Part shown: positions 862 through 63,108 of the stretch, piece after piece | Position numbering within the stretch: position 1 is the first letter of the stretch | How the letters are laid out: the number at the start of each line of letters is the position of its first letter | NCBI RefSeq assembly: GCF_900187375.1 | Contig: NZ_FYEW01000001.1 | Location: 620,001-684,000 of the forward strand | Length of the DNA stretch: 64,000 nt | Source of the DNA: Hymenobacter gelipurpurascens | GTDB lineage: Bacteria > Bacteroidota > Bacteroidia > Cytophagales > Hymenobacteraceae | Direction: 5' to 3' | The notes under the pieces: generated by a model | Seen by the model: only the letters and a program-made list of their open reading frames with translations | The model's database searches: none | What the model was told of the DNA's origin: nothing | Made by a program: the position numbers and the translations under genes

Positions 862-1251
862 CTAGGCCACTGCGGGCCGGTTCAACCAGCGCCAGAAAAC
901 CACACCACCCGCCGCGTAAGCCACTATATCGAGCGGATCGGGGGTGGTGCGAGCATCAAAGTGGGGCAGGATGGCTTCAAACCACACCGACATAACAACC
1001 CAGGTGCTGAAAATCCAGGACGTAGGCAGCACGAAGCTGGGCCGGTGGAAGTAGAATCGCCGAAAAAACCACAGCAGCATCGTCAGCTCTAGGGGCAGGG
1101 CCAGCACATCAGCCACGTACGAGCGCATTGCCGTGGGCAGGGGCCAGTGGGCCGAAAGGGAGCCGCCATGTTTATACACAACGGCCACCACATACACCGC
1201 TGTGCCCACCAGAAATAACGGATGCCGTAGCTCGCTAGGCCACTTCTTCAT
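862..1251 (-). CDS. Small membrane protein of unknown function
   Basis: A 129-residue protein starting MKKWPSELRHPLFLVGTAVY. It has four hydrophobic segments (about residues 11-28, 45-62, 75-97, 107-122) with few charged residues between them, so it should be an inner-membrane protein. The start at 1251 overlaps the stop of the upstream gene as ATGA, which implies translational coupling; a longer reading frame back to 1461 exists but would run through the upstream gene. The stop codon TAG is part of a CTAGGCCA motif. I do not recognise a family with known function. Confidence 0.8.
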   Translation of the reverse strand: MKKWPSELRHPLFLVGTAVYVVAVVYKHGGSLSAHWPLPTAMRSYVADVLALPLELTMLLWFFRRFYFHRPSFVLPTSWIFSTWVVMSVWFEAILPHFDARTTPDPLDIVAYAAGGVVFWRWLNRPAVA

Positions 1252-1559
1252 CCGGCCAGCAGCGTCAGGAACCACACCACAAAGGACACCAGGGCCGCAA
1301 AGGCCAACTGCCCACCCCGAATGATCTTCTTGAAGAAGCGCACGGTGGGGCTGTCGTCGGGGTTGATCTGGATCTGCAGGAACGAGGGCAGTGGTTCCTC
1401 GGCTTGTTTCTGCCGGGCCTGCTCGCTGCGGAGGCGTTGCGGATCCAGGAGCTGCCCGCACCGCTCACACCGGTCCTCTGGGCGTTGCTGCCAGTTGCTC
1501 CAGAAGCCACACGCCGGACACTTTTTGGTGGCACTGAGCAGAGAATTGGTGTTGGGCAT
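1248..1559 (-). CDS. Zinc-ribbon protein with C-terminal membrane segment
   Basis: A 103-residue protein. Residues 14-37 carry two Cys pairs (CPACGF and CERCGQ) in zinc-ribbon spacing. A charged linker of about 35 residues follows, then one hydrophobic segment at about 83-102 (LAFAALVSFVVWFLTLLAG) that ends the protein. This suggests a cytoplasmic zinc ribbon anchored to the membrane by a C-terminal helix. Its stop overlaps the start of the downstream membrane protein by four bases (ATGA), so the two are translated together and may form a complex. Function is unknown. Confidence 0.8.
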   Translation of the reverse strand: MPNTNSLLSATKKCPACGFWSNWQQRPEDRCERCGQLLDPQRLRSEQARQKQAEEPLPSFLQIQINPDDSPTVRFFKKIIRGGQLAFAALVSFVVWFLTLLAG

Positions 1560-1614
1560 GGAGAGAGGGGAAGTGCAGGCGAGAACGAGCGAATGGCCTA
1601 TCTAGAGCGAAGGA

Positions 1615-4600
1615 TTATAGCAGAGAAATACGCTTCGTGATGGTGCCATGGGCCGTGTATACTACAACCAGATAGAGCCCTGGCCGGTTCGGGGCCAGAG
1701 TTACGGTTAAGGTACGGGCCGTCTGTTGCCGCAGATTATGTGCAAGAACCAAGTGGCCTAGCGCATCAAAAATCTGCATTTGCTGGACGGCAACATTCGC
1801 TTTCTGCCAGTCAAGCGTCAGCTGGCCTGCCGTTGGGTTAGGATACAGCGTAAGAGCGGAGGAAAGTGCTGCATCTGCCGCTGTTGCAACTGGTACCACA
1901 AACTTTGTGGCCGACAGGCCGGGGCCACCGGCTCCGGCGACTGAAAGTAAGCCTGAGCGTGCCCCTGTTGGCACTTCAGCCACAATCTGTGTGGGGCTGC
2001 TGCTCACAAGCTTGGCGGGCACTCCCTCAAAGTACACGGTGTCGGTCTGGCCATCAGCCAGAAAATTCCGTCCCTCAATCGTAACCAAGGTGCCCGCACT
2101 GCCTTCAGCCGGCGAGAAGCTGCTGATGACCGGCGCTGGAATAAACGTAAACTCCGTAGCCGTAGTAGCCTTGCCGCCTGGCGTTTGTACCTCTATCGGC
2201 CCAGATGCTGCCAAGGTGGGCACGCGCACGAGCAGCTGGGTGGCAGAGGCCTGCAGCACTACTCCCGAGGTAGCCCCGAACAGCACCGTGTTGCGAGTAG
2301 GTACTTCCGAGAAGTTGGTGCCGGTAAGCGTAACAGAGCTGCCAGCTTTGCCTTTTCCTGGGCTGGAAATCGTGAGGGTAGGCGGGTGCCACGTTTTGAA
2401 AAGTGACAGGCTTTCTGCCTGGCCACCAAGAGTTTTTATCAGAATATGGCCTACTGGTGCGCCTGGAGGTACCTCTACATCTAGGCGGGAGGAAGTGGCG
2501 AGTACTACGCGAGCCGCTAGGCCACCTATCGTAACCGTATCCTGATCAGGCACTGGTGAGAAATGGGCGCCCGTAAGTGTAAGTATGGTGCCTGGAATTC
2601 CCTCTTCGGCGGAAAGAGATGTAAGTGTAGGAGGCAGAAAGGCCGTAAAGCTGGCCGTGGAATGGGCAGAACCATCAGGGGTGATAACCTGAATCCGGCC
2701 CGGAGTTGCGCCCGCCGGCACCCGCACCGTGAGCGAAGTAGGAGTGACCTGGAGAATTTGGGCTGCCGTGCCCTGGAACCGTACCTGATTACCAGTTGTA
2801 GAGGGCGCAAAATGCTGCCCCGTTATGGTAACCAGCGTGCCCGCCCGCCCCTGAGCCGGCGAGAAGCCGCTAATACCGGGAGATACAACGACATCCTTCG
2901 CAGCCAGCTCCAAGCCCGGTACCACGGAAGGGGGTACATCGAAAATTCGGTTCAGTGTAGTGTTGGTCCGGACGGGCTCGTTGTAATCAAAGAATATATC
3001 AGCGAAGTTTTCTATGCTGGCTTTTGGCGCTAGGCCACTTCGGGGTTGAATGCTGAACTGCACAAACCCATTGCTGCCTAGCAGGTTGTGGCTGCTGTCG
3101 GGGAGCAGGATATTATCAAAGGTGAAGGTAAGTACTGGCCTAGCTTGGCCCGTGATGCTCAGGTGGTAGGGGTGGGAGACGGCGCCTACCTGTAGCGTGC
3201 TGATATCCAGCCCGGCATCCAGCGTATCTACCACTACCACCCGGTAGGCCACATCGTTGCCGGTGTTCTGAAAGCGCACCTGGTAGCGGAGTGCTGTGTT
3301 GGTGGGCGTGTAGTGTTGGGCCGTGAGCCCCGCCGGAAGCACATGCTTGTCATTGGGATCATAGGAGTCCAGAATTGGCTGACAGTCTTCGGCTTTTTCG
3401 GGCTCGGCGTCATCGGGCGGGAAGGCCATCATGGCTGCACTAGGCTGCCCATTAGTAACCCTGCCGGGCAGCTCTACATTGGCACTAGCGGTGGCCTTTA
3501 GGGGGTGCCCTAGCGGCTGGTCGGCTTCTACCCGCACTACCTGGCCTGTGGCCGGAATCCGCAGCACGAGGCTGTCGGCGGCGGGCAGAGAGTAGCGGTG
3601 TATCAAGGCCAGCTGGGCATCCTGGTACACCCGCAGGTTTAGGCTATCGGTAGTAGAGCCTTTGCCGGTATTTCGGATAGTGAAGCGCGCTTGATTCCCT
3701 GGCTGAGTGGTGCCAGCCACTGTAATAGAGGCCTCATTCCAGTTGGGTGGAGGAGGGTAAGTGTTAACCGGAGTGATCCAGGCTTTGGTGCATACCGTCA
3801 AGCCCCGAATGCTGGCGTCACCACACGCAACCGAATCCAGAATGGTAATGGTGCCGTGCTGGTTTGGCTGCAAGGTGCCGACGTCGAATACATAATTCCC
3901 TCGGGCATCTTGGGTATGCGGCATATTTGCCGAAATAAACAACACATGCTGCGGCAACTCTACCATCACCTTGGCATCGGCAACGGCTACAAAGCCCGTG
4001 TTGCTGTAGGCCACCGTGGTGGTATTGCGGAAGCAGCGCCGACGCCGGTTAGAGGCCACGCTCACACTTAGATAAGGCATAGCCGAAAGTTGATTACCGA
4101 AGTCCGGACCCGGCACGGAACTATCATATTCGGCCAAATGCACAGTAGTGGCCGTGGTACAGGTCTGCAGGATAGTACGGCCGGGCTCCTGGGGTAGCAG
4201 CTGCCGAACGGTATAGGTGCCTGTATCCGCGGCAATGGAGTAGTTGCCGTTTTCGTCGCTGTAGCCATAGTAACCACCTGGCTCGGCTATCACGGCTATA
4301 TTGGGGAGGGCCGGGGCCGTTTTGGGGGCGCAGGCATAATTCAGGTCCTGAAAAATACGCCCGGTTATCAGACCTTTACGCGCTCCAGTAGGGTTTGTAG
4401 CAGTGAAAATGTGCACCGCATCCCGGTCATGGTTGAGGGCAAGCAGCCGGGTGCCTTGCAGGTTAATAGAAGGATAGCTGAACGTCCCGGGAATTCGACT
4501 GGCAAGGGTGCCAGTAGCGTCATATACCTGCACAAACGCATCGAGCGTAGAGCCGATAAACACCCTGCCGGCCGCATCAACGCTAATGCCCACATAGCAT

Positions 4601-6629: not shown

Positions 6630-6717
6630 GGTATTTTGGGTAGGGCCTGCGGTGGAAGCTAGGCCAGGTGAATAGGAATAAAAGCTGCAAGCTACGGCTT
6701 GCGCTGCACTTACTGGC

Positions 6718-9700
6718 CTAGCGGGCGCAAATGCTACGATACGCACAATACTGGCACTTATCCAAGTCGTCGGTTTTGCGGATGGGTTCCTGCGGGTCGA
6801 GGATGCGGTTTATTATTCGGCCGAGCAGCTGCTCGCTGTGCTGCACAAAGTCCTGGCCGCCTTCCGTCAGAAAGCTCATATCCGCCGACATAGGGCCGGC
6901 GCTTAGGTTGCGCAGGGAAATGATAGCGGCATCCGCGGCGGGGCGCCCGCCGTGGGCCAGCATCAGGCGGTAGAGCCAGAGTTGCCGGACCTTATCGGCG
7001 CTGGGTGTGGCATCCGTGATGAGGCGCTCCACGGCATCGGTGGGGCCTTCGCCGCGCTTGAGCAGGCGCAGGTCGTAGGCCTGTACGAGGCCGGTTTTGT
7101 AGTCTACCACGCGCAGGCGGCCATCGGGCAGCTGATCCACGCGGTCAGCAAACCCTACCAGGCTCACGGGCAACTTCTCGCCGGAAGGAAGCGGCACATA
7201 AATGGTGGCCTGCAGCGCTTCTTCCAGGCTCTGCACCTGGAGCGGTAAGCCATCGGGCTGTTCCAGCAAACCCTCGAGGTAGCGGCGCACCAGCTGCGAA
7301 GCTACCTGGCCTAGTACGTGGTTAAGGCCTTCGTCGGCGCGGGCGTGGCGGCCTTCCTCCTCCTTGCGCAACGCCTTGGCAATCATGATGGGAGCGAGCT
7401 TCACGAGGCCTGGAATATCAGCGGTGGTAATGGGCTGCTTGCGCTGCTGAAAGGGCTGCATCAGTTCCTCCAGCGCCTCGTGCACCACCGTCCCGAAGCC
7501 ATCGGGACCCAGGACTTCCTCCACTTCGTCGTTTTCGCGGAAGCGGGCTACTCGCTGGAAATAGAACTGCAGGGAGCAGTTCAGGTATTGGTTTAGAGCC
7601 GTGGGCGAGAGGCCTTTCACCAGCACTGCGCGAAGAGCCAGCAGCATGCCGGCATCTTTTTCTAGCACAATGTCGCCGGGAGCTTCTCTTTCGCGCTCCA
7701 CCGTTAGCTCATGGGCCGAAGATGTTTCGGGCAGAGACGCCAAGGGCTTGTGAGGCTCCTCGGCGAGAGAAGTCACGGTCAGGTCGTGCAGGCGTAGGCC
7801 AGGGCTTTGGGGCAGCAGGTCGTTTTCAATTTGCAGCAGGAAGCGGCTTCGCTCGCCGGTGCGTGTACCCTCGGCGCCGGGCAGAATGTGGAGCAAATCT
7901 ACCTGCCGGGCGCGCTGGAGCAGGCGCCAGAACTGGTGAGCCGTGGCGGCTTCGTGGTCGGCGTAGGTGGGTAGCTGGAAGGTGGTTAGTACATCGTACG
8001 GGAACAGGGAGCTGTGGCGCTTGGGGGCCGGCAGTACGTTCTCGTTGCAGCTCAGAATGATGATGTGGTCGAAGTCGAGGGCGCGGGTTTCGAGCAAACC
8101 CATCACCTGCACATCGGCAATGGGCTCCCCGCTGAACGGCAGGCGCGTGTTCTTCATCTGCTCATAGAGAAACCGCCGGAACGAGCGCACCGACAGTCGC
8201 TGCTCTCGGCAGTCAAACACCGAATCAAGCCGCTTCACGAGCGTGAAAAATAAGTATAGGTACTCCGCCTCAATGGCAGAGTGCTGATCCTGATACGCCT
8301 TTTTGAGCAGGTCGATGAGCGTGTAGCAGGCCGCAATGATGTCGTCGCAGTTGTTCCACGTCTTGAACAGCGCCCGAATCAGCGGGTGGCCCTGCCCCCA
8401 GGTCTGCAGCTCTTCGGCGGTGAGCAGCACGGCGTGACGCTTCACAATGGTGCGGCACACTTTGTCCAGCAGGCCGTGGAAGTTCTCTTCGGGCTGCTTA
8501 TCGAGCCACTGCTGGTAGCGCCGCAAAAACGGGTGCTGCAGCAGCTTGCTTACAGCCAAGTGGTGATAGCGCGGAATGCCGTAACCGGTTTCCGGCGAGC
8601 CTTCCCTTACGCCCGTCAGGTGCACTTCAAACAGCAGATCTACCAAGTTAAACAGGGGAGTGCTCTGGAAGCTTAGACCCATGGTTACGTTGTACTCCGG
8701 CACGGCGTCCAGCGGGAGGCCGTGGAGTACGGGCAGCAGCAGTGTTTCGTCGGGAAGCACTACCGCCACCTTGGCGCTGGGGTTCTGGCGCCTCGATTCG
8801 GCCAGTAGCTGGCCCGCCACTTTGCCTTGCATGGAGGCATTGGCCACGCCCACAAACCGAATATCGCGCGGCAGACCCCGCAGCAAGTCGGCGGGGCCGC
8901 CCAGGTTTTCATTCGGCAGCTCAAAAATATCCTGGTAGCGGCGCAGGTGCTGGCCGGCGCGGTTGGGCGTACCGGGCTCCAAATAGAAGGTGTCGCCATC
9001 AAAATGCACCTCGGCCCGGCGCGCCTTCCGCAGCAGCCGAATCAGCTTTTCCTCTGCCTTCGAGAGGGAGCCTAGGCCTATAAAGACGTGCTGGGGCAGT
9101 GTTTCGTCGGCTTCCAGCCGCGTCTGGACCTTGTTTACCGCCAGTCGATACGCTAGGCCAGGGTAGGCCAGGTGGGTGCGCTCCATCTGGCGGCGCAGGC
9201 GGCGGTATACCTTCTCCAAGTCGTCCCAGAAGCGGAAATAAGCCGCCGTAGTGCTCTGCGGAGCCGGCTCGTTGCTCAGCTCCCAGCGCTCCAGGGCCTT
9301 AGCCTCCGAGAGGTACTCAAAGATTTTCTTCGGGGAGGCCAGGTTCTGATCGAGGCTGGAAAAGTCCTGGAGCAGCAACCCCGACCACCCCACAAACTGG
9401 TCGAAATCCAGCTTCGGGTCGATTTCGCGCAGAATCTCGAACAGCAGCAGCTGCAAGGCAATGGGCTCCTCCACCTGCACGCCGGCTAGCTCCACCATGT
9501 AGTCTTCCATGGCCGCAATGCGCGGGCTCCAAACCGCCTGCCCAGCCTCCGCGGCCAAGCTCAGCTCGTTCTGCAGATACACCACTGCCCGCCGCGTGGG
9601 CACTACCACTACCAGATCCGAGAGTTCATCGGTGGGGCCGTAGCGCGCCACCAGCTCCCGCGCCATCCGCGTCAGAAAGGGCGTAGCGGCGGGGAGCGTG

Positions 9701-10124: not shown

Positions 10125-10628
10125 ATGGATCCTACTCAGCTTAGCCTTGAACTTCGTTACGGTCAGAGTGCTGACCTCAACCGCCGCCGCTGGATTATTG
10201 GCCTGTCGTTGCTGGGCGTAGCCGCCGGCCAGATCGTGAGCCTGTACCAGACCGGCATCATCCATCACCTGCCCGACCCGCCAGTTGGCCCTTTCGATTC
10301 AGATAAGGTAGATGCCTCCGACTACGGCTACAAGCGCCTGGATACTCCCGACGCCCTGCCCATGATTGTGACCTATGGCCTGACCGCCTGCCTGGCCGGA
10401 GCCGGTGGCCTACACCGCGCCAGCAAGCAACCCGCTATTCCGGTGGCTATGGGCCTCAAAACCCTCTTCGATACCTTCACGACAATCAGGCTAGGCCAGG
10501 AGGAGTGGCAGGAAAACAAGGCCCTGTGCTTCTACTGCCAGGTGGCGTCGGTGGCCTCAGTCGCCTCGTTGGCCTTGGCCATGCCCGAGGCGCTGAAGGG
10601 GCTGCGGAAGCTATTGGGTAAGCGGTAA
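10125..10628 (+). CDS. VKOR-like membrane protein
   Basis: A 167-residue protein with four hydrophobic segments (about 23-42, 82-99, 104-122, 137-155). The motif ALCFYCQVASVAS near residue 133 has the CxxC and helix context of the vitamin K epoxide reductase family, which reoxidises disulfide-forming proteins. The first periplasmic loop (DSDKVDASDYGYKRLDTPD) has no cysteine pair, which canonical bacterial VKOR enzymes carry, so enzymatic disulfide shuttling is doubtful or uses another partner. It is a single gene followed by a strong hairpin. Family assignment is moderate. Confidence 0.6.
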   Translation: MDPTQLSLELRYGQSADLNRRRWIIGLSLLGVAAGQIVSLYQTGIIHHLPDPPVGPFDSDKVDASDYGYKRLDTPDALPMIVTYGLTACLAGAGGLHRASKQPAIPVAMGLKTLFDTFTTIRLGQEEWQENKALCFYCQVASVASVASLALAMPEALKGLRKLLGKR

Positions 10629-11799: not shown

Positions 11800-13062
11800 T
11801 TAGTGCCCCGCGCTAACGACTGGCTCGGCTTCCCCCTCAGCACCAACCGGGGCAACATAGCTTGACAACGAACGAACCGCTAGACCCAGACTGATCAGAA
11901 TAAGCACTGCTCCCAGCAGGAAAGGCGCGCCAGGGAAATACATAGGCGCTTTAGGGCTGGTATAGTAAGCAAACAGGTTCGTCATCAGCGGTGGGCCGAC
12001 GATGGAAGTGAGGCTCATTAGGCTGGTGAGGGCGCCCTGCAACTCGCCTTGCTGGTTGGCGGGCACCTGCCCCGAAATGATGCCCTGTAGCGCCGGCCCC
12101 GCAATGCCGCCCAGGCAGTAGGGAACCAGGAACGCAAACATCATCCAACCTTTAGTGGCGAAGGCAAACAGCACGAAACCCACCGCGTACAGCAGCATGC
12201 CTAGGTACACGGAGCGCTTCTGGCCTAGCGCCGGATTAATGCGCCGGATGAGTACGCCTTGCACCAGCGCCACCAGCAACCCAATGGCACACAGCGAGTA
12301 GCCCACCCACGCCTCGTCCCACTTAAACTTCTCCATCACGTAGTACGTCCAGGCCGATTGGGTGGCGTGGGCGGCTACGTAGATGAACAGCAGGGAAGCC
12401 ACCAGACCCATAATTACGGGGAAGCGCTTCAGCAGCTTTAGCGAGCCGATAGGGTTGGCGCGGCTCCACTCGAAGGGGCGGCGCTTCTCTGCAGGCAATG
12501 ATTCCGGCATCACGAAATAACCATACAGTACATTCAGGAACGTAAGGCCAGCTGCCACCAGAAACGGCAGCTGCGTTCCGTGCTTGCCCAGCACGCCACC
12601 CAGCAGTGGCCCGATGATGAAGCCTAGCCCGAAGGCGGCGCCAATCATTCCGAAGTTTTGAGCACGGGTTTCTGGGGTCGAAATGTCCGCGATATAGGCT
12701 GAGGCCGTGGTGAAGCTGGCACCCATCACGCCCGCAATCAGGCGGCCTACAAACAGCCAGGCGAGGCTAGGGGCAAAGGCTACCAGAATATAATCAAACC
12801 CGAAACCAAGCAGGGAGAGCAGCAACACCGGCCGCCGGCCAAACCGGTCGGAAAGGTTGCCCAGCACTGGTGAAAACAGAAACTGCATCACCGCAAACGC
12901 AAACACCAGCCACCCACCGTAGCGCGCTGCGTCGCTCACGGTGCCGCCCGTGAGGTGTTGAATAAGCCGAGGTACTACCGGAAGGATAATGCCGATGCCG
13001 ATAACATCAAGCAGCAGCGTCAGGAAGATGAAGCCAAGCGCGGCCTTGCGAGGAGCTGCCAT
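11800..13062 (-). CDS. TetA-like MFS exporter (TCR/Tet family)
   Basis: A 420-residue major facilitator protein with about 12 helices. Motif A between helices 2 and 3 is visible as [17 protein letters not shown], and the second part has the typical TetA sequences ([33 protein letters not shown]). Members export tetracycline or other small molecules by proton antiport across the inner membrane; the chromosomal Bacteroidota members have unknown natural substrates. The start at 13062 ([14 protein letters not shown]) is preferred over ATG at 13089. No TetR-type regulator is adjacent, so a dedicated resistance role is not supported. Confidence 0.88.
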
Positions 13063-13176: not shown

Positions 13177-13208
13177 TTTCAGCGTTGTAAAGTGGCCTAG
13201 AATGGGTT

Positions 13209-17770: not shown

Positions 17771-18084
17771 GGAGTAAATGAACGGGAATCAGAGGTATGA
17801 ATACTGCTTAAGCCACTATAAATACACTTAAAAACAGGAATGCCGCCGCGGAATGTGGCCTAGAGGGTAAGGAACGTGACGTGCAAACCGTTGAGCTACA
17901 GATTTTTTTGGTATAAATTCAGGGCATGATAGCACTGTATATGGCAGATTAGAAAGTATATGCTATATTTGAAGCAGGTTTAAGAGAATGTAGTGACCCA
18001 GACCCTGTTGAGTACTTCCGCGAGGAAGGGTAAGCAGCAAGGAAATCTGCTTATCTTAAAAAAATCATCTATCACAAAAGTACC
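17771..18084 (+). promoter_or_regulatory. Promoter and structured leader of the cold-shock gene
   Basis: A 314-base gap. It holds a TGGCCTAG motif at 17856, a -7 element TATATTTG at 17964-17971, and then a leader of about 105 bases before the cold-shock ATG at 18085. The leader contains a hairpin CTTCC-GCGA-GGAAG (18015-18028) closed by a GNRA-type tetraloop, and a second possible stem AAGCAG (18032-18037)/CTGCTT (18047-18052). Long structured leaders are usual for cold-shock mRNAs, where they control translation with temperature; that role here is inferred. Confidence 0.6.
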
Positions 18085-20644: not shown

Positions 20645-20688
20645 ACAAACAAAAGAGCCGCTTCCCAGGGAGCGGCTCTTTTGTTTGT
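20645..20688. terminator. Bidirectional terminator, 18-bp perfect stem
   Basis: The arm at 20645-20662 pairs perfectly with 20671-20688, loop of 8 bases. The stem is A-rich on the left and T-rich on the right, so it works for both the helicase (+) and the convergent four-helix-bundle gene (-). The last base is the first base of a TGGCCTAGGCCA palindrome (20688-20699). Confidence 0.88.
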
Positions 20689-39073: not shown

Positions 39074-39097
39074 GCTAGGCCACTAGGGGCCGCTGAA

Positions 39098-46245: not shown

Positions 46246-46320
46246 GGCATACAGCTAGGCCACCTTGGCCACTCAACGTAGGGCAAGGAGAGACCTAGCG
46301 TGAGTAATGTATAGCAGGCC

Positions 46321-47080: not shown

Positions 47081-47107
47081 ACAGATAAAGTGCTTACGGA
47101 AGGTGGC

Positions 47108-48523
<1,416 letters not shown>

Positions 48524-48838: not shown

Positions 48839-49354
48839 ATGCGCATCATCGATCAGAAACTGGCCTACGATGGTCACTATAAGTTACGTCAGTTGCAGCT
48901 CCAGGACGGAAAAGATGTACTAAAACGAGAACGGTTTGAGCCCGGCACGGCCGTTGCGGCCTTGGTATTTAATACCAAAGCCCAGCAATATATCCTGACC
49001 CGCCAATACCGTATTGGGCCGGAAAGAGAGTTGGTAGAGCTGGCGGCAGGAATGGTAGACGGCACCGAAGAGCCAGAGGAAGCTATCCGGCGAGAGATTC
49101 AGGAGGAGCTAGGCTTCGAGGTGGACTATCTGGAGCAAATTGTGCGGTTGCTGCCTTCTCCGGGGACGAGTGCGGAGGTCATTACGGTATTCTATGCCGA
49201 AGTAAGCAAGCAAACAGGCGAGGGAGGTGGCCTAGCATCCGAACACGAGAAAATAGAAGCGATGCATTACCGGGCAGAGGAGTTGTGGAAAGCGTCTTTT
49301 GAAGATGCCAAAACACTAGTGGCGGTCCAGTGGGCCCAACTGCGAACGAAATGA
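48839..49354 (+). CDS. Nudix hydrolase (ADP-ribose pyrophosphatase-like)
   Basis: A 171-residue enzyme. The Nudix box is complete: GMVDGTEEPEEAIRREIQEELGF (about 77-99), matching Gx5Ex7REUxEExGU. The N-terminal strands (DGHYKLRQLQLQDG) and the later PSPGTSAEVITVFYAEVSK fit the ADP-ribose/nucleoside diphosphate sugar pyrophosphatase subgroup. It would clear ADP-ribose or related diphosphates in the cytoplasm. Monocistronic, with a long bidirectional hairpin after it. Confidence 0.9.
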   Translation: MRIIDQKLAYDGHYKLRQLQLQDGKDVLKRERFEPGTAVAALVFNTKAQQYILTRQYRIGPERELVELAAGMVDGTEEPEEAIRREIQEELGFEVDYLEQIVRLLPSPGTSAEVITVFYAEVSKQTGEGGGLASEHEKIEAMHYRAEELWKASFEDAKTLVAVQWAQLRTK

Positions 49355-50103: not shown

Positions 50104-50303
50104 ACATTTCGGTGGCGCCGGTTTATATATTTTCGACAGGCTTTGTACAATACCTAGCGAAGCTACCAGCTGCCCCGTCCAAGTTGTAGTGGCCTAGCGA
50201 GTAACAGTAGTGTTTTAGCGGCGTTACTGCTTCATTTGTCGTAGCTGGGGCAACTACCTGCCTAATCAATTTCCGAGGCCCTATTTGCGAACTTCAGTGC
50301 CTG

Positions 50304-52250
50304 TTAATAGTGCCCGCCTACTTTTCGGTAGTTTAGGCGTGCCATAGCGGAGGGAAACTGGGGGAGCCTGCGCGGCGCGGAGTGGCCTAGGCCAGCCGTA
50401 TCGGTGAGAGCATGCAGAAACGACACTAAATCATGCTTTTCCTGAGTGGTGAGATGGAGCTTATCGGCTGGGAGCGTTTGGTTTGGTACATCAAGGCCCA
50501 GCCCGGCGCCACCGCCCTGGTCGTAGAAGTCTATTACTTCTTCCAAAGTACGATAGGCACCCTGGTGCATGTAAGGCGCTGTAAGCGCTATGTTGCGCAG
50601 TGAGGGCGTTTTGAACGCGTGCTCCTGCCACCGGATTCCGGTAGCGCCGCCCCGGCCCAGGTCGGAATCGAGGGAGCGAGGGCGCCGACTGGCCCGGGCG
50701 GGTGTACCCAGTACTTCGGCCTCGGTGCGCTCGAAACCCGGTGGCACAGTGCCATTGAAAAGCGGCAGGAAATGGCAGGTGGCGCACTTGGCTTTACCCA
50801 GAAACACGTTGGCACCGCGCCGGGCACTGGGGCTTAGTGCCTCGCGCTGCCCCCGCATGTACTTATCGAGTGGCGCATCGAGGCGAATCAGGGAACGGAG
50901 GTAAGCCGCCAAAACGGTTTTTACATGCTGCTCCTGAACGGCAGTTTGCTGGGGCTCGGTGGCGAAAGCCTGCGCGAATGCCGCCCGGTAAGAGGAGTTC
51001 CGCGACAACAGGCGGGCGGCGGTGGCCAGTGACCCATGCATTTCAACGGGGCTCGCGACTACAGATGCTACTTGGTCTTCCAGAAAGCTCACGCGCCCAT
51101 CATAAAACTGGGTGCGCTGCAAGGCTGCGTTGAGCAGGGTAGGTGCATTGCGCAATACCACGCCTCGTCCGCCGTAGGCCACACTTTTCGCCTGGCCATC
51201 GGTAAAGGCGCGGGTGGGCTGGTGGCAGCTGGCGCAACTACGGCTGCCATTGCCCGACAGCACCGGATCAAAAAACAACTGCCGGCCTAGCGCCGCTTGC
51301 GCAACGGTGGGACGCACGGTGGAAGTAGGCGCGAAACCAACGGCATCAAACGCCCCAACTTCAAACAGGGAACCGGCATCGGGCCGCAGGGCCCTCACTT
51401 CCTTAAACGCCGGAATCCCTAAAGTCTGCTGCATTGCCCAAAGCTGCTGACTCAGTGGATTGGCGTAGGCAACCAGAAACTCGAGCCGGTCAAAATGAGC
51501 AGCGCTAGAGTGGCCTAGGTAAGCCTGTACTGCGCGGAAAGTGCTGTCTAGCCGAACGGCGAGGCTAGGGTGGCGGGTGCGCAACTGCGGTTGATAGGGC
51601 GCAATAGTTGCCTGCACAGCGGCCAGGGCTTCGGCAGCCTCGGGCACGGCCCCCGGCGAGGCGGGAGTATCGAAGCCCGGGATACCCAGCGTCATCACCC
51701 GAAAGACCTCCAGCCGCGCAGCATCAAACAGGTGGCGGTCGGTGGGAGAAAGCGTTTCGGCCGCATGGTGCAGGCCTAGCAGGCTGCTCTGCACGAAGGC
51801 CACTTGTTCCAGCACTTCTTCCCGTTGTGCGGGCTTGTAGAGGGCAGGGTAGAAGTACGTTTCCAGAACCTGCAAGCCCTCTGGTGCATGCACGCGTTGT
51901 TGCTGGTCGAACTCTTCTACTTCGCCCAGCGCGGGCCCGTTCAGAAGCTTGGCGGTGGAGGGACTGTAGTATTCGGCCAGTAGTTCTACCCGCTTCCAGG
52001 CTCGGCGAGCAGCCAGAAAAGCCTGGCGCTGCCGCTCTGCCTGCTGTCCAGTAGCCACGGCATGGCGTAAGCGAGCTACAGCAGAATCTAGTTGCGTCAG
52101 ATCCTGCCCATACTGCCGAAGGACCTGCATGGCCAGGCTGGCAGGGGAGAGTTTATATGCAAGGCTGGTAGTCGATGAAGACCATTGGCAGCTTATCAGA
52201 GATAGAGCCATGCCTACCAGAATGACAAGGGAAATCCGGAAGTAAATCAT
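50304..52250 (-). CDS. Imelysin-like / di-haem cytochrome c peroxidase fusion lipoprotein
   Basis: A 648-residue lipoprotein (MIYFRISLVILVGMALSLISCQW; lipobox Cys about 21). Residues about 30-290 are a helical domain resembling the imelysin/EfeO fold (RRAWKRVELLAEYYSPSTAKLLNGPALGEVEEFD). Residues about 310-640 are a di-haem peroxidase of the MauG/CcpA type with two haem sites, CASCH (about 338) and CATCH (about 488), and LRNIALTAPYMHQG near the end. The family reduces hydrogen peroxide or oxidises a protein partner; an imelysin domain suggests iron or haem handling. It follows the PhoX-like gene on the same strand, with a terminator between. Confidence 0.85.
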   Translation of the reverse strand: MIYFRISLVILVGMALSLISCQWSSSTTSLAYKLSPASLAMQVLRQYGQDLTQLDSAVARLRHAVATGQQAERQRQAFLAARRAWKRVELLAEYYSPSTAKLLNGPALGEVEEFDQQQRVHAPEGLQVLETYFYPALYKPAQREEVLEQVAFVQSSLLGLHHAAETLSPTDRHLFDAARLEVFRVMTLGIPGFDTPASPGAVPEAAEALAAVQATIAPYQPQLRTRHPSLAVRLDSTFRAVQAYLGHSSAAHFDRLEFLVAYANPLSQQLWAMQQTLGIPAFKEVRALRPDAGSLFEVGAFDAVGFAPTSTVRPTVAQAALGRQLFFDPVLSGNGSRSCASCHQPTRAFTDGQAKSVAYGGRGVVLRNAPTLLNAALQRTQFYDGRVSFLEDQVASVVASPVEMHGSLATAARLLSRNSSYRAAFAQAFATEPQQTAVQEQHVKTVLAAYLRSLIRLDAPLDKYMRGQREALSPSARRGANVFLGKAKCATCHFLPLFNGTVPPGFERTEAEVLGTPARASRRPRSLDSDLGRGGATGIRWQEHAFKTPSLRNIALTAPYMHQGAYRTLEEVIDFYDQGGGAGLGLDVPNQTLPADKLHLTTQEKHDLVSFLHALTDTAGLGHSAPRRLPQFPSAMARLNYRKVGGHY

Positions 52251-52459: not shown

Positions 52460-53953
52460 CTAGCGTGGCAGGCCGCTCAGGACCACTACCTGGCTGGCCT
52501 GGTCGTTGCCATTGTTGGGCTTAGCGCCGCCGTCCTTGTACTTCTGTGCCCGCCAGGAATGGGGCTGAATGCAGAGTGTGAAAGTGTTTGGCTGGCCTAC
52601 CACATCCGATACATCTACTAGCGCGCCGTATTCCCAGCTGCCTTTCGTGGAGGGGGCGGGCGTGTAGGCTGAGCCTGTCACGTTGTACTTGTCTTTGTCG
52701 GTTTCCGTGCGGTGGTGGTCCAGCTCCATTACCTTCTTCAGCTCACCGGTGGCAATGTTGTACTGGTAGAGGTAGGCATCGTGGGTTTCGGTGCCGTAGC
52801 CGTTGGAGTCTTCCTGAATGTAGACGTAGTTCTGGGTTACGCAAATGTTGTCGGGGTTCTGGAAGTCCTTGGCTTTGCCGTTGCGGTCGTCGCCATCCAG
52901 CACTACTTCCAGCGTGCCTTGCAGTGGGTTTTGCTCATTGAGCAGGAGGCGGTAGGTCCGGCCCCATTTGGTGCGGCTTTGGTCGGCATTTACGCCCGTA
53001 AAATCCTGGCCCGTTACGTTGAAGTAGACTTCGCGGCCGTTGGCCCCGCCGCCTTTGCGGTAATCGAGGTCTTCTACCCGGCCAAACTTAATGGCTTTAA
53101 GCGGATCTACCTGAGCCTGCATTTGGGTGCCGGTCAGGTTTTTATAATCCGGAATGGCCACGAACTCTACCTCGTATTTCTGGCCTAGGGTTATGTCTTT
53201 CTCCTTTTGGTTCAGGTCTTTGCGGCGGAGCATGTACTGCTGACCACCCTCTAAGTCGCCTACCGCATTGCTGACGTAGAGCGCCACTTGCCCGCCGCTG
53301 GCATCGGAAGCATCCTCGCCGGTCAGGATAACGGTTTTGCCGGTGTAGGCCGTTTTGGGCAGAGGCACGGCGTTTTCGGCGCTCCAGTAGCCCAGGCCTT
53401 TGATGCCTTTCGGGGTGCTTTGCGTGTTATTATCGGCGAAAGGCTGGATGAGGTGGGTCTGAGCATCTACGGCGCTTTCACCGGCGCTCAGGAAGTAGGG
53501 ACCGAAGCCGTGCTCCTCGGGCGTTACCAGCGTGGCGGAGCACAGGCGCCAGCGGCCTCCGTCGGAGTTCAGCACGTACTCGCCGCGCACGGGGCGAAGC
53601 GTCTCATCGAACTGCACCCGCGAAATGGCCATGTTGTCCTCGTTGTTCACCAGCATGGTAAACCCCTTTCCGTCGGGGTTGCGCAGCAGGCCGGCCCCAT
53701 CGGCCGAGCCCCCGAACATGAAGTCGGGCGAGGCGGCCAGCTTGTCGTCGGAACTGATAAGCGAGTACATCTTCACGCTCTCAAACCCAGCCTGCATCTT
53801 CGCCAGCACCGGCGTAGTGGAGTAGTTATCGAGCTTTACCGTGCTGGGTGTTTCCGCTGGGGTATTGCTGTCGTTGTCGTTGGAGCAAGCCGCTAGGCCA
53901 GTCGAGAAAGCCAGGCCGAGCAATAAGCGCGCTGAGAGGGTAGGAGTGTGCAT
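52460..53953 (-). CDS. PhoX-like (DUF839) lipoprotein
   Basis: A lipoprotein of about 497 residues (MHTPTLSARLLLGLAFSTGLAACSND; lipobox LAAC). Motifs of the PhoX/DUF839 beta-propeller are seen: LVNNEDNMAISRVQFDE, ILTGEDASDASGGQVALYV, RVEDLDYRKGG, FQNPDNICVTQNYVYIQEDSNG. PhoX enzymes are calcium/iron-dependent alkaline phosphatases; whether this member is a phosphatase depends on metal ligands I cannot confirm. The ATG at 53953 or 53959 may start it. A -7 element TACTTTTG lies at 54001-54008 on the minus strand. The next gene on this strand is the peroxidase fusion. Confidence 0.78.
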   Translation of the reverse strand: MHTPTLSARLLLGLAFSTGLAACSNDNDSNTPAETPSTVKLDNYSTTPVLAKMQAGFESVKMYSLISSDDKLAASPDFMFGGSADGAGLLRNPDGKGFTMLVNNEDNMAISRVQFDETLRPVRGEYVLNSDGGRWRLCSATLVTPEEHGFGPYFLSAGESAVDAQTHLIQPFADNNTQSTPKGIKGLGYWSAENAVPLPKTAYTGKTVILTGEDASDASGGQVALYVSNAVGDLEGGQQYMLRRKDLNQKEKDITLGQKYEVEFVAIPDYKNLTGTQMQAQVDPLKAIKFGRVEDLDYRKGGGANGREVYFNVTGQDFTGVNADQSRTKWGRTYRLLLNEQNPLQGTLEVVLDGDDRNGKAKDFQNPDNICVTQNYVYIQEDSNGYGTETHDAYLYQYNIATGELKKVMELDHHRTETDKDKYNVTGSAYTPAPSTKGSWEYGALVDVSDVVGQPNTFTLCIQPHSWRAQKYKDGGAKPNNGNDQASQVVVLSGLPR

Positions 53954-55668: not shown

Positions 55669-55785
55669 AGCAGCAGCTGGCGCAATGCTTCCCCGGGAAC
55701 AAGTGCTGAAAGGCGTGGCCTAGGCCTGTTCGGGTGCGTGCGCAATCCACTGTATCTGCCCGTTTTCTTTCCTGATTATACGATT

Positions 55786-58386
55786 ATGTCTTTGCATACT
55801 CTTAAGCTGCCCGAACTCTCGCTGGTGCTTCTCATTGGCACATCCGGAGCCGGTAAATCTACCTTTGCCCGACGGCTGTTTCAGGCCACCGAAATAGTAT
55901 CCTCGGACCAGTGCCGGGCGCTGGTGGCCGATGACGAGAACGACCAATCGGCCACGCCCGAGGCATTTGCCCTGCTGCACTACCTGGTAGGCCTACGCCT
56001 TAAGCGCGGCCTGCTCACGGTGGTTGATGCCACCAACGTGCAGGCTAAGGCCCGCAAAACCCTCGTGCAGCTGGCCCGCGACTACCACGTGCTGCCCACC
56101 GCCATCATTCTGGATGTGCCCGACCGCCTGGCCGAAGACCGCAACCGCCAGCGCATTGAGCGCCAGCACATGGGCCGCCACGTGGTGCCGCAGCAGCGCC
56201 AGCAGCTGCGCCGCTCTCTCAAAACGCTGAAGCAGGAAGGTTTCAGGCACGTTTACCACCTGCACGGCTCCGAGGAAATTGATGCGGTACAAACTATCAT
56301 TAGGGACCCACTCTACAGCAACCGCAAGCAGGATAGCGGTCCTTTTGACATCATCGGCGACGTGCACGGCTGCTACGAGGAGCTGGTCCAGCTGCTGACT
56401 GGCCTAGGCTATGCGGTGGAGACCGAAGAGCGGAAGGATCTGCGCGACCTGGGAGTGCGCGTGACGGCACCTGTGGGCCGCCGGGCGCTGTTCCTGGGCG
56501 ACCTGGTAGACCGTGGCCCCGCCTCGCCGCAGGTGCTGCGCCTAGTGATGCACATGGTGCAGAGTGGCCTAGCGCTGTGCGTGCCCGGCAATCACGATAT
56601 CAAACTGCTGCGCTACCTCAACGGCAAAACCGTAAATGAGCAGCATGGCTTTGCGGAAACAGTAGCGCAGCTTGCTACCGAGCCCGACTCGTTCAAGAGC
56701 CAGGTGCGGCAGTTTCTGGACGGCCTCGTGAGCCACTACGTGCTGGATGGCGGTAAGCTGGTGGTGGCCCACGCCGGCATGCGCGAAGAAATGCAGGGCC
56801 GCGGCTCCGGCGCCGTGCGGGCCTTTGCGCTGTTCGGGGAAACAACCGGCGAAATCGATGAGTTTGGCTTGCCGGTGCGCTACAACTGGGCCTCGGAGTA
56901 CCGGGGGCGCGCTATGGTGGTGTATGGCCACACGCCCGTACCGGACCCCGAGTGGCTCAACAATACGATTGATATTGATACCGGCTGCGTATTCGGGGGC
57001 CGCCTCACGGCCCTGCGCTACCCCGAGCGGGAACTGATTTCCGTGCCCGCCACACAGGTGTACTGCGAGCCCGTCCGCCCGCTGCGCCCCGCAGAAGTGG
57101 CCGCAGATGCCGCCCAACTCACGGCCCAGCAGCAGCACGACGATCTGCTCGACATTCGGGACGTAACCGGCAAACAGATTATCAAGACGCGCCTGCTGCC
57201 CTCCGTGACCATTCGGGAGGAAAACGCCACGGCGGCGCTGGAGGTCATGAGCCGCTTCGCCCTGAACCCGAAGTGGCTGCTCTACCTGCCGCCCACCATG
57301 AGCCCCTCCGAAACCAGCGCCCTCCCCGATATGCTGGAGCACCCCACCGAAGCCTTCGACTACTTCCGTCGGCAAGGCCTGGAACGGGTGGTCTGTGAGG
57401 AAAAGCATATGGGCAGCCGCGTGGTAGTGGTGCTGGCCAGGGATAAGGACACTGCGCGCCGCCGCTTTGGGGTGGTAGGCGAGGGGCCGGGCAAGTGCTA
57501 TACCCGCACTGGCCGCAACTTCTTCACGGATACTGGCCTAGAAGCCGCTTTCCTGACGCGCCTGCAGGAGGCCCTGACCACGGCTGGCTTCTGGGAGAAG
57601 TTCCACACCGACTGGATCTGCCTGGATGCCGAGCTGCTGCCGTGGTCGGCGAAGGCGCAGGAGCTGATCAAGAATCAATACGCCGCCGTAGCCGCTGCCG
57701 CCACGGCCGCCCTGCCTGAGGTTGCGGCTGTGCTCACGCAAGCCACCGCACGTGGCCTAGAGGGCGTAGAGGCGCTGTTGGCGCGTACCTCGGCCCGCCA
57801 AGCCGCCGCTCAGCACTACGCCGAGGCCTACCGCCGCTACTGCTGGCCCGTAGAAAGCCTTGCGGATTTGCGGCTGGCGCCCTTCCACCTGCTTGCTACG
57901 GAGGGCCGCACTTACTTCGATAAGGACCACGCCTGGCACATGGAAACCCTGCGTGCCATTTGCCTCGCCGATGAAGGCCTGCTCCGCGCCACGCCCTACC
58001 GGGTGGTGCATCTGCAGGATATAGCCGATGTGGAAGCTGCCACCCAGTGGTGGACCGACCTCACCGCGGCCGGCGGCGAAGGCATGGTAGTCAAGCCCTA
58101 TGATTTCATCCCGGGGGGCCGCCAAAATCTGGTGCAGCCGGCTCTGAAGTGCCGCGGCCGGGAATATCTGCGCATCATCTACGGCCCCGACTACCTGCTG
58201 CCCGGCAACCTGGAGCGCCTGCGCGAGCGGGCCGTGAAAAGCAAGCGTAACCTGGCCCTGCGCGAATTTGCCCTCGGCGTAGAAGGCCTGGAGCGGTTTG
58301 TGGCCGGCGCCCCGCTACGGGAAGTGCACCAATGCGTATTCGGGGTGCTGGCCCTGGAAAGCGAGGCCGTGGACCCGCGGTTGTAA
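55786..58386 (+). CDS. pnkp: Pnkp polynucleotide kinase-phosphatase-ligase
   Basis: An 866-residue RNA repair enzyme with three domains. Kinase: P-loop GTSGAGKST (Lys24, Ser25), about 1-170. Phosphatase: FDIIGDVHGCYEE (Asp188-His194), LGDLVDRG and VPGNHDIKLL, about 185-400. Ligase-like adenylyltransferase: EEKHMGSRV (Lys540) and GEGMVVKPYDF, about 480-866. It heals RNA ends (5' kinase, 2',3' phosphatase) and, with Hen1, seals them. Start at ATG 55786 is set by the family. In the gap from hen1 lies TGGCCTAGGCCT at 55716, and two more motif copies sit within the gene. A decayed copy of the 3' end lies at 59340-59474. Confidence 0.95.
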   Translation: MSLHTLKLPELSLVLLIGTSGAGKSTFARRLFQATEIVSSDQCRALVADDENDQSATPEAFALLHYLVGLRLKRGLLTVVDATNVQAKARKTLVQLARDYHVLPTAIILDVPDRLAEDRNRQRIERQHMGRHVVPQQRQQLRRSLKTLKQEGFRHVYHLHGSEEIDAVQTIIRDPLYSNRKQDSGPFDIIGDVHGCYEELVQLLTGLGYAVETEERKDLRDLGVRVTAPVGRRALFLGDLVDRGPASPQVLRLVMHMVQSGLALCVPGNHDIKLLRYLNGKTVNEQHGFAETVAQLATEPDSFKSQVRQFLDGLVSHYVLDGGKLVVAHAGMREEMQGRGSGAVRAFALFGETTGEIDEFGLPVRYNWASEYRGRAMVVYGHTPVPDPEWLNNTIDIDTGCVFGGRLTALRYPERELISVPATQVYCEPVRPLRPAEVAADAAQLTAQQQHDDLLDIRDVTGKQIIKTRLLPSVTIREENATAALEVMSRFALNPKWLLYLPPTMSPSETSALPDMLEHPTEAFDYFRRQGLERVVCEEKHMGSRVVVVLARDKDTARRRFGVVGEGPGKCYTRTGRNFFTDTGLEAAFLTRLQEALTTAGFWEKFHTDWICLDAELLPWSAKAQELIKNQYAAVAAAATAALPEVAAVLTQATARGLEGVEALLARTSARQAAAQHYAEAYRRYCWPVESLADLRLAPFHLLATEGRTYFDKDHAWHMETLRAICLADEGLLRATPYRVVHLQDIADVEAATQWWTDLTAAGGEGMVVKPYDFIPGGRQNLVQPALKCRGREYLRIIYGPDYLLPGNLERLRERAVKSKRNLALREFALGVEGLERFVAGAPLREVHQCVFGVLALESEAVDPRL

Positions 58387-59255: not shown

Positions 59256-59339
59256 AGTAAGGGAGGGATAATTCCTTCTGTCATAGCCTGATTCATGCTT
59301 AGCAGCTTCGGGCGTGCTCTAGGCCACTGGAATGCCGAG

Positions 59340-61268: not shown

Positions 61269-61286
61269 GCAATAAGGTGTACGCGT

Positions 61287-63011
61287 CTACTTGCGACCCA
61301 TACTCTTAGCCCGAGCGCCCTTGAACTCCGAGCCGGCGCGCCACTGCGGGAACGTGGTTTCGCTGGCCAGGCGCTGGCCTACGCGGAAGTAGAGCTGGGC
61401 ATCCTGGGCAATGCCGCTCAGGTCCCAGCTGGGGTCGAACTGGTCGGCGGGCTTGTGGTACATGTTGGTGGTGTAGTTCTGGCGCTGTTTGGCAATGGCT
61501 TCCTTGCCGCCGGTGCGGCTCTCGAAACCGCCGCTGGCGTAGAGCGAGGGCACGCCCACGTGGGCAAAGCTGAAGTGGTCGGAGCGGTAGAACATGCCCG
61601 TTTCGGGCGTTTGGTCGGGCAGCACGTAGCGGTCCTGTTCCTTGGCGGCGGCGCGGGCGTAGTCCTCCAGCTCCGACTGTCCGTAGCCGATAACGGTGAG
61701 GTCCTTCATCTGGCCGTAGGGCCAGAGCATGTCCATATTCAGGTCCGCTACAGTCTTGTTGAGCGGGAAGGGCGGGTGCTGGACGTAGTAGGCCGAGCCC
61801 AGCAGGCCTTGCTCTTCGCCGGTTACCGCCAGAAACACGATGCTGCGCTGGGGCTTCTCTTTGGCCTGCTGGAAGGCTTCCGCAATGCTGAGCAGCGCCG
61901 CTAGGCCAGTACCATCATCCACGGCCCCGTTATAGATAGAGTCGCCGGCAATGGCTTTGCCTACCCCAAAATGGTCCCAGTGGGCTGAGTAGATGATATA
62001 TTCCTCGGGGCGAGTGGTGCCGGGCAGTACGGCCAGCACGTTGCGCGAAGTCTGGCGCCGCAGCTTGTTCTGGATGCTGCCCGTGAGCGTAAGCCCACCG
62101 AGTGACCTAGCCCGGAAGCCCTTGGTGTTCGCGGCGGCGTAGAGCTGGTCGTAGTTCTGGCCGGCCGCCTGAAACAGCTTTTTAGCCGCATCTAGAGTCA
62201 GCCAGCCTTCCAGGGCACACTTGTCGGCGCCTTTGTTGGCGGTTTGGGCGCGCAGCTTGGGGCTGACGGCCCCGCTCAGCACCACCGACCATGGGTAAGC
62301 TGCGGGCTTCGTATCGTGCACGATGAGCAGGCCGGCGGCACCGTGGCGGGCGGCTTCCTCGTATTTGTAGGTCCAGCGGCCGTAGTAGGTCATGGCCTTG
62401 CCGTTGAACAGGGTCGTGTCGTTGCCCGCATTGCCGGGGTCATTCACCAGCACTACCACAGTTTTGCCTTTCACATCGAGGCCGGCGTAGTCATCCCAGC
62501 CGTATTCGGGCGCTACTACGCCGTAGCCAGCAAACACCAGCTCGGAGTTCGTGACGGCTACCTGGGGCTGCTCCCGTTGGGTGAAGGCCACAAAATCGGT
62601 CTTGTACTGGAAACTCAACATCTGTCCTTTGCCTTTGATTTGCAGAGTGGGGCTGGGTGTGCCTGTGATTTCTACCAGCGGCACCGGCTGGAAGTAAGAG
62701 CCATCGGGGCCGGACTTCAGGCCCAGGCGCTTGAACTCATCGGCCAGATACTTCGTGCTCCGCTCTTCGCCCACAGTAAACGGCTTGCGACCCAACATCT
62801 CATCCGAGGAAATAGCCTGCAGATACTTACTGATGCTGGCCGCCGTGATGGCTGGCGCAGCTGCGGAAGATGCCGCCGTTGTCTCGGGCGTGTTGTCAGA
62901 AGTGGAAGCAGCTGTGTTGTCCGACTGAGATTGACAGCCCGACAGGCCTAGGCCTAGCATGAAAGCCGCCGCTAGCGGGCGGGCAGGAGAGGGCAAGAAG
63001 GGGAGAACCAT
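61287..63011 (-). CDS. M28 family metallopeptidase lipoprotein
   Basis: A 574-residue lipoprotein (LAAAFMLGLGLSGCQSQ; lipobox LSGC, Cys about 26), followed by a Ser/Thr/Ala-rich linker. A protease-associated domain is inserted (GYGVVAPEYGWDDYAGLDVKGKTVVVLVNDPG ... AAGLLIVHD). The catalytic M28 domain shows IIYSAHWDHFGVG, GAVDDGTGLAALLSIAEAF, TGEEQGLLGS, LNMDM and FYRSDHFSFAHVGVPSLY, which supply the two-zinc site. It should remove amino acids from peptides at the cell surface. Start ATG 63011. Convergent overlap is absent. Confidence 0.92.
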   Translation of the reverse strand: MVLPFLPSPARPLAAAFMLGLGLSGCQSQSDNTAASTSDNTPETTAASSAAAPAITAASISKYLQAISSDEMLGRKPFTVGEERSTKYLADEFKRLGLKSGPDGSYFQPVPLVEITGTPSPTLQIKGKGQMLSFQYKTDFVAFTQREQPQVAVTNSELVFAGYGVVAPEYGWDDYAGLDVKGKTVVVLVNDPGNAGNDTTLFNGKAMTYYGRWTYKYEEAARHGAAGLLIVHDTKPAAYPWSVVLSGAVSPKLRAQTANKGADKCALEGWLTLDAAKKLFQAAGQNYDQLYAAANTKGFRARSLGGLTLTGSIQNKLRRQTSRNVLAVLPGTTRPEEYIIYSAHWDHFGVGKAIAGDSIYNGAVDDGTGLAALLSIAEAFQQAKEKPQRSIVFLAVTGEEQGLLGSAYYVQHPPFPLNKTVADLNMDMLWPYGQMKDLTVIGYGQSELEDYARAAAKEQDRYVLPDQTPETGMFYRSDHFSFAHVGVPSLYASGGFESRTGGKEAIAKQRQNYTTNMYHKPADQFDPSWDLSGIAQDAQLYFRVGQRLASETTFPQWRAGSEFKGARAKSMGRK

Positions 63012-63108
63012 CAGGAAATTCTGGTTTCTGGTGGAGCCGTCACCGGCAATGGAGTAGCGAGGAGTGGCCTAGGATGCCGGTAATGTAAGGCATTGAGCGG
63101 TTGCAGCG

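Follow-up and report, generated by a model that had tools for sequence, protein, structure and literature searches.

The window, by which we mean the whole stretch of 64,000 nucleotides analysed here, is from the genome of Hymenobacter gelipurpurascens (G000; 5.06 Mb in 9 contigs; contig NZ_FYEW01000001.1, positions 620,001 to 684,000), and what marks it is a short word containing TGGCCTA that recurs between and within its genes from one end to the other. Gene positions are those of our own gene models. Domains of Bacteroidota type are encoded in the window, and Rfam and tRNA scans across it gave no matches. A first-pass annotation of the window had counted about 56 copies of a half-form, with about two expected, and five copies of a 12-bp palindrome. 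The recount gives 25 copies of CTAGGCCA and 36 of TGGCCTAG at exactly 56 distinct places, since 5 of these are full palindromes (starting at 20688, 22891, 27476, 42139 and 50383), and a third-order Markov model predicts 3.0 half-forms on both strands where 61 are observed, which confirms the observation. That the 12-mer would be expected far less than once is correct at third order, where the window expectation is 0.014; at fifth order it is 0.83, higher-order Markov models absorbing the word itself. The avoidance of CTAG that the annotation had brought in as strengthening the case amounts to mild under-representation in a 384-kb sample of G000 (1,890 observed vs 2,333 at second order), despite the word.

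The enrichment extends over the whole 5.06-Mb genome, in agreement with the earlier proposal of a genome-wide signal like HIP1 of cyanobacteria. The palindromic 12-mer occurs 259 times in G000 and its reversed control once, and CTAGGCCA occurs 348 times in the 384-kb sample, far above the 19.7 and 61.9 copies expected at third and fourth order.

The unit and its places in the window

When the most enriched words of 7 to 12 letters were collected from the 384 kb of G000, they were found to nest in ASTGGCCTAS (S = C or G) and its overlaps. Per base, TGGCCTA is about 8.5-fold more frequent in G000 than in five sister genomes and AGGCCTA about 6-fold (310 in 460 kb of G000 vs 43 in 400 kb of the sister genomes), whereas GGGCCTA (1.6-fold) and CGGCCTA (0.8-fold) hardly rise or do not rise at all, so that A is tolerated for the first T. 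Likewise, C is tolerated for the G of CTAG, GTAGGCCA being present 231 times vs 41.8 expected in the 384 kb. The flanks of the unit are C or G in 92% and 94% of copies on the two sides and A stands two positions before it in 55%. The unit is thus an asymmetric, graded 10-mer, ASWGGCCTAS, and not the 12-bp palindrome that the first-pass annotation took as the repeated signal. An arm adjoins CTAG with p = 0.184, from which 32 palindromes are expected and 22 were seen; because the arms occur independently, the palindrome is two independent units overlapping on a shared CTAG and is no commoner than chance. A pile-up of 40 pairs at offset 5, where no other offset has more than 4, had suggested a palindromic dimer site, an idea given up when conditioning on CTAG removed the excess. 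The exact unit ASTGGCCTAS occurs 4,028 times in G000, 2,012 on one strand and 2,016 on the other, and its reversed control 23 times (10 and 13). This is 0.80 per kb, equal on both strands and near the one-per-kb frequency of HIP words.

The places in the window are as follows; a dot in place of a strand marks the palindromes, and the labels "kept" and "missing" refer to the four genomes that carry the word (G000, G163, G164 and G172).

20688..20699 (.) full palindrome TGGCCTAGGCCA, two overlapping units
22891..22902 (.) full palindrome, TAG stop at 22895 inside, left unit kept in all four carriers
27476..27487 (.) full palindrome, intergenic
42139..42150 (.) full palindrome, intergenic
50383..50394 (.) full palindrome, left unit kept in all four carriers
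862..869 (-) unit over stop codon of gene model 862-1209
1235..1242 (-) unit, kept in all four carriers
1754..1761 (+) unit
2517..2524 (-) unit
3030..3037 (-) unit
3136..3143 (+) unit
6659..6666 (-) unit, missing only in G164
6714..6721 (+) unit over stop codon of gene 6718-9747
7307..7314 (+) unit, missing only in G164
9153..9160 (-) unit, missing only in G164
10491..10498 (-) unit, kept in all four carriers
12221..12228 (+) unit, kept in all four carriers
13193..13200 (+) unit
14977..14984 (+) unit
17856..17863 (+) unit
21344..21351 (+) unit
21532..21539 (-) unit
22250..22257 (+) unit, kept in all four carriers
24369..24376 (+) unit, missing only in G164
25190..25197 (+) unit
26283..26290 (-) unit
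27526..27533 (+) unit within terminator-like inverted repeat (seen by eye)
28797..28804 (+) unit
31900..31907 (-) unit
32052..32059 (+) unit, kept in all four carriers
32634..32641 (-) unit
35547..35554 (+) unit, missing only in G164
37087..37094 (+) unit
38762..38769 (+) unit, missing only in G164
39075..39082 (-) unit
39499..39506 (-) unit, kept in all four carriers
40106..40113 (-) unit
40732..40739 (-) unit
41010..41017 (+) unit
41766..41773 (+) unit, kept in all four carriers
45080..45087 (-) unit
46255..46262 (-) unit
47104..47111 (+) unit at gene end
49228..49235 (+) unit, missing only in G164
50190..50197 (+) unit
51511..51518 (+) unit, kept in all four carriers
53181..53188 (+) unit
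53893..53900 (-) unit, missing only in G164
55716..55723 (+) unit
56400..56407 (+) unit, kept in all four carriers, C or G varying at the upstream S
56565..56572 (+) unit, missing only in G164
57534..57541 (+) unit, kept in all four carriers, C or G varying at the upstream S
57753..57760 (+) unit
59319..59326 (-) unit
61901..61908 (-) unit
63065..63072 (+) unit

By the gene models 30 of these places are genic, 23 are intergenic and 3 lie over gene ends, in line with the earlier estimate of about 25 copies between genes or at gene ends, and the ends named then (862, 6718 and 22895) match these models. Between genes the 7-mer reaches 2.55 per kb, double the 1.27 per kb found within them. Its density is about equal between convergent, divergent and co-directional genes (2.34, 2.21 and 2.80 per kb), on which account terminator hairpins were rejected as the main cause, and between co-directional genes its orientation is unbiased (49 vs 52), which speaks against a signal at the RNA level. 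Among 89 non-overlapping close pairs, 32 are of the order TAGGCCA...TGGCCTA, 17 of the opposite inverted order and 40 direct, a mild excess, and hairpins are at most a minor part of the occurrence of the word. Within genes there is an orientation bias of 275 vs 122, which fits the bar on in-frame TAG. The first-pass annotation had genic copies using the codon CTA; this holds for the most part, 164 of 190 genic CTAG-type copies in the 384 kb using the CTA GGC or GGC CTA frames. In the 290 gene models of the same 384 kb the stop codons are TAG in 131, TAA in 123 and TGA in 36, and for 36 of the 131 TAG stops the codon is part of a copy of the word. With over a quarter of TAG stops in the unit, the watermark word appears to reshape the use of stop codons.

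Polarity with respect to replication was absent across 17 stretches of contig C1 (315 vs 294, heterogeneity p 0.31), and 20 stretches of the G164 chromosome gave 197 vs 179 with a mild heterogeneity (p 0.02) that did not correlate with GC skew. Spacing is near random, the coefficients of variation being within about 1 standard deviation (SD) of random placement (stretch L012 excluded), except for the seven-mers of G164, which are two SD more clustered. At the 20-kb scale the counts are slightly more even than Poisson, with a variance/mean of 0.45 over 15 stretches, again leaving out L012. Stretch L012 (G000:C1:1400001-1420000), picked out as the lowest of 16 stretches, holds 7 seven-mers vs a mean of 33.5 in the 15 other C1 stretches (P 3e-8). 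It encodes a plasmid-type Rep3 initiator (5674-7062, +) and is likely a recent insertion, the low count being as expected for newer DNA. On contig C4, L085 is also poor, with 9 in 20 kb, and L083 and L084 hold 30 and 32.

Carriers of the word and the origin of its sites

When ASTGGCCTAS was counted in 120 genomes of the genus, four were found to be carriers, G000 with 4,028 copies, G163 with 3,506, G172 with 3,339 and G164 with 2,302. The remaining genomes have 17 to 119 copies, the usual level being about 40, and even those at the upper end (G124 with 119, G150 with 111 and G169 with 97) are far below the carriers. The 12-mer picks out the same four among 200 genomes of the family (259, 157, 154 and 93 copies), the other 196 having 0 to 5. 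By their S46 peptidase, the genomes nearest to G000 are the other three carriers at 93-94% identity, followed by genomes at 88-89%; this protein was matched in 62 of the 120 genomes and in none of the other 58, so that a non-carrier may still lie within the clade. A nine-genome tree from 28,777 aligned columns places G000 outside (G163,(G164,G172)) and sets the four apart from five sister genomes, and the word is lacking from sister genomes whose G+C is similar or slightly higher. With a stricter pattern, 394 other genomes sampled across the phylum, three of them Hymenobacter, gave 1 genome with one ASTGGCCTAGGCCA copy. Carriage by phages was considered and set aside: two 14-mers match 36 and 37 IMG/VR stretches (71 loci, contig pieces), but there are few units per locus, and the richest, L251, has 3 exact 10-mers in 7.4 kb, each locus having been chosen for one match.

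The sites of the window were followed in alignment blocks covering 46-48 kb in carriers and 27-42 kb in other genomes, and the counts are of G000 7-mer sites aligned without gaps, 2-7 gapped sites per genome and sites outside the blocks being dropped. Intact sites number 46 of 64 in G163, 45 of 66 in G172 and 34 of 61 in G164, whereas permuted control words in the same alignments are intact in 24-28% of cases (26% for G163; p 1e-13 to 2e-7). Among non-carriers, 2-5 of 45-48 sites are intact in G104, G120, G169, G150 and G146 (5 of 45 in G104) and 5 of 26 in G142, and the words aligned there are mostly 1-3 point substitutions from the G000 word. Because most sites align ungapped with the corresponding places in word-free relatives and are so few substitutions apart, we conclude that they arose by point substitution, and in the carriers they are retained above controls. 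The S positions of retained sites show swaps between C and G more often than other changes, 10:3 (8:1 upstream and 2:2 downstream), on a background of 4,645 to 10,088 for such changes (p 0.0006 upstream alone and about 0.001 pooled over three genomes). The TGGCCTA word is lineage-specific and common to four related Hymenobacter species at matching sites.

For 63 G000 sites that could be compared in the four carriers, 25 are present in all four and 14 in G000 only. What differs is the number missing from a single genome, which is 12 for G164, 4 for G163 and 2 for G172. G164, which also has the lowest count, may be a lineage where upkeep has weakened and sites are decaying, as judged from one 64-kb region.

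Other words in the family

Another word, CCTACCCCC, belongs to the sister clade and is present at 539-3,530 copies in 12 of the 120 Hymenobacter genomes: the top five have 3,530, 3,409, 3,140, 3,123 and 2,419, G169, G124 and G154 have 1,259, 1,250 and 1,149, and four more have 711, 688, 647 and 539. G146 and G120 follow with 330 and 294 and the rest have at most 147, with 36-69 in the TGGCCTA clade, so that this word is graded across genomes rather than all-or-none; it was noticed in L069-L072 (G169) and L061-L064 (G104), and in G120 and G146 it is lower, perhaps decaying. For its core, CCTACCC, retention exceeds that of controls between G169 and G104 (23 of 46 and 23 of 32 sites vs 28% and 33%) and from G146 to G169 (18 of 25 vs 34%). 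Retention is borderline from G169 to G146 (18 of 46 vs 25%) and to G150 (11 of 40 vs 15%), and between G120 and G146 it is not significant (19 of 37 vs 39%). A third word, ACCTAGGK, in whose totals the palindrome ACCTAGGT is counted on both strands, is commonest in five other Hymenobacter genomes (7,420, 4,713, 4,618, 3,646 and 3,627 copies). Three members of genus g5 have 3,256-3,318, and five further members of g5 have 16-26. Among the 200 genomes of the family, 8 from two genera are thus high in it, G059 having 389 and the rest at most 198. This word was met in L325 (G080), L327 (G178), L314 (G004) and L316 (G015). In 116 Hymenobacter genomes counted for all three words there are 4, 12 and 5 carriers of the TGGCCTA type, CCTACCCCC and ACCTAGGK, respectively, drafts of the G197 type being counted alike, and none is high in two; 99 of the 120 genomes of the genus are without any of the three, the count for the third covering 116.

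The words of Pontibacter, summarised as AASTATAR, come from samples of 20-22 kb and not from whole-genome counts. AAGTATAA or AACTATAR was seen in 7 of 9 named loci, the top 8-mer at 18-44 per 22 kb, the former in P. arcticus, P. vulgaris, P. anaerobius and P. mangrovi and the latter in P. fetidus, P. populi and P. burrus. Seven more genomes of g3 (Pontibacter) gave three with one word, one (G018) with both and three with none. The loci are L141, L142, L146, L147, L152, L154, L155, L305, L307, L308 and L310, of which L307 (G018) has both. The step S-T-A (C/G-T-A), read off logos by eye, appears to be present in all the family words, and all five kinds of word are denser outside long open reading frames, CCTACCC only slightly so (1.48 vs 1.19 per kb).

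Five Rufibacter loci and most other non-carrier loci showed no word of comparable strength, samples of 20-22 kb leaving weaker words possible. CCAAAAACGA in genus g6 was set aside as it looks like a longer interspersed repeat; L319 and L320 of that genus have such a repeat around AACAGGCCAAAAACGAA. In L129 (Hymenobacter sp. BT188) and L136 (H. qilianensis), words of the AAAAGCCC / AAGCCCCC type are enriched and are perhaps terminator stems. A literature search, with subscription journals largely outside its reach, turned up nothing on iterated words in either Hymenobacter or Pontibacter.

What may read the word

A tentative explanation, which we rank first while holding it at less than even confidence, is that the word is a self-DNA uptake signal of pilus-independent competence. 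A putative DNA receptor at the surface or in the periplasm would prefer fragments bearing the word, and recombination of the preferred DNA would raise the number of copies and hold it there. A new dialect would begin when the receptor changed its specificity, and a lineage that lost the receptor would see its word decay, which is perhaps the case of G164. Drive by preferred uptake and recombination has been proposed for the DNA uptake sequence (DUS) of Neisseria and the uptake signal sequence (USS) of Haemophilus. Like the DUS of Neisseriaceae and the USS of Pasteurellaceae, the word is short and asymmetric and is found in thousands of copies on both strands with an excess between genes, and like the DUS it comes in dialects with a shared trinucleotide, apparently S-T-A here, as judged by eye, and CTG in Neisseriaceae, and with possible decay in some lineages. 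According to PMC3630211, the CTG shared by the Neisseriaceae dialects is required. Unlike the DUS and the USS, the words described here alternate within one genus in which 99 of 120 genomes have none of the three counted.

Several observations weigh against uptake. PF00437, the ATPase of pili and type II secretion systems, was over the cut-off in 0 of 22 carriers (five sub-threshold) and 1 of 21 others, pilins not having been searched, which leaves a receptor of the minor-pilin type known for the DUS nothing to sit on. The first-pass annotation had listed an uptake sequence as an option, and the dense asymmetric word on both strands and its dialects agree with that, whereas the missing pilus ATPase does not. 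ComEC is present in 43 of 43 genomes, carriers and non-carriers alike, and thus allows uptake but does not favour it. Inverted-pair terminators, a trait of the DUS, are at most minor here (32 of 89 close pairs), G018 bears both Pontibacter words, retention does not separate drive from selection on a binding site, and no report of competence in Hymenobacter was found in the literature searched. A precedent for competence without pili within the Bacteroidota is Riemerella, for which the accounts drawn on here (PMC8459023, PMC7965970) describe no pilus homologues found, the use of ComEC, DprA, ComF, RecA and proteins of unknown function, and a preference of R. columbina for its own DNA. The likeness is incomplete, and this too counts against uptake: the essential Riemerella uptake protein RA0C_RS04915 is given as reported only from Flavobacteriaceae (PMC8459023), and the k-mers described are A/T-rich only, with no clear uptake word (PMC7965970).

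It is possible, though we consider it unlikely, that the word is instead the site of an abundant chromosomal DNA-binding protein, a nucleoid or chromosome-organising protein whose specificity changed between lineages and whose sites are kept by selection. The strong retention of exact sites would be accounted for, as would the lack of orientation between co-directional genes, and the TA step in every dialect together with the C/G-biased upstream flank suggests readout by a protein on DNA. Against this, thousands of sites would have to be rebuilt at each change of specificity, for which the force would need to be strong or resemble a drive; palindromes are no more frequent than independent arms predict; and with 99 of 120 genomes lacking all three words there is no universal need for any of them. 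A Chi-like site, read by a helicase-nuclease of the AddAB/RecBCD type in double-strand-break repair and with Chi words particular to lineages, is likewise possible and not favoured, and we regard it as rather improbable. Chi sites too are asymmetric, over-represented and lineage-specific, and Chi words differ between bacterial groups; the density of this asymmetric word would suit such a site, and the window encodes a PD-(D/E)XK protein and a UvrD helicase, a candidate AddAB. Chi sites differ in that the word has no strand polarity with replication in C1, the heterogeneity in G164 being unrelated to GC skew, and in its presence or absence inside one genus, which is unexpected when all congeners presumably repair breaks.

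Still less probable is a word of the HIP1 type, driven by DNA methylation and mismatch repair through a cognate methyltransferase, a model that comes from PMC4390886. The frequency of about one per kb genome-wide, the conspicuous palindromic forms and the swapping of alternate HIP words between cyanobacterial genomes (as described in PMC4390886) are all reminiscent of what is seen here, and HIP1 is stated to be "maintained by selection" (PMC6604393, citing Xu 2018), maintenance being a further likeness. But HIP1 is a palindrome with cognate methyltransferases and the unit here is an asymmetric half-site, and the carriers have no enzyme in common among PF00145, PF01555 and PF02384, other methyltransferase families not having been searched. 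PF00145 is absent in G000 and G164, PF01555 in G163, G164 and G172, and PF02384 in G164; when 4 of the 5 PF02384 places (in G000, G163 and G172) were compared, the best match was 27% over 271 aa (G163-G172) and none of note involved G000. That the genome seemingly losing sites, G164, has none of the three families would fit this model; since sites may be disappearing there, the absence of methyltransferases from G164 tells less against the model than does the absence of an enzyme common to the other three. The methylation target suggested in the first-pass annotation is not supported by the three families searched. Finally, it is very improbable that the word is a side effect of base composition or codon usage, or part of a dispersed mobile repeat. 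Genic copies do follow codon-compatible frames, but the density doubles between genes, the 12-mer outnumbers its reversed control by 259 to 1, sister genomes of similar or slightly higher G+C are without it, and its sites mostly align ungapped to relatives without it.

Genome-saturating dialect words have been documented so far as uptake signals in two proteobacterial families and as HIP1 in cyanobacteria. A third phylum now has several, and for two of these congeners divide sharply into those that have the word and those that do not; one lineage seems to be losing its word, and sister clades use different ones. This makes directly testable what reads the word, whether drive or selection maintains it and how specificity switches. 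Should the word be an uptake signal, it would give a handle on the DNA receptor of pilus-less competence in the Bacteroidota. We would go so far as to suggest, with somewhat more reserve still, that Hymenobacteraceae may recognise self-DNA without type IV pili, through a reader of a new kind, their genomes being watermarked by one of at least five S-T-A words and the specificity having switched repeatedly within one genus, as between the TGGCCTA clade and its CCTACCCC-bearing sister clade.

Among the genes of the window, the PD-(D/E)XK nuclease and the UvrD-type helicase lie close together (6718-9747, -, and 13209-16634, -) and are perhaps an AddAB pair, and 55738-58386 (+) encodes a Pnkp-type protein of three domains (AAA_33, metallophosphatase and PNKP ligase).

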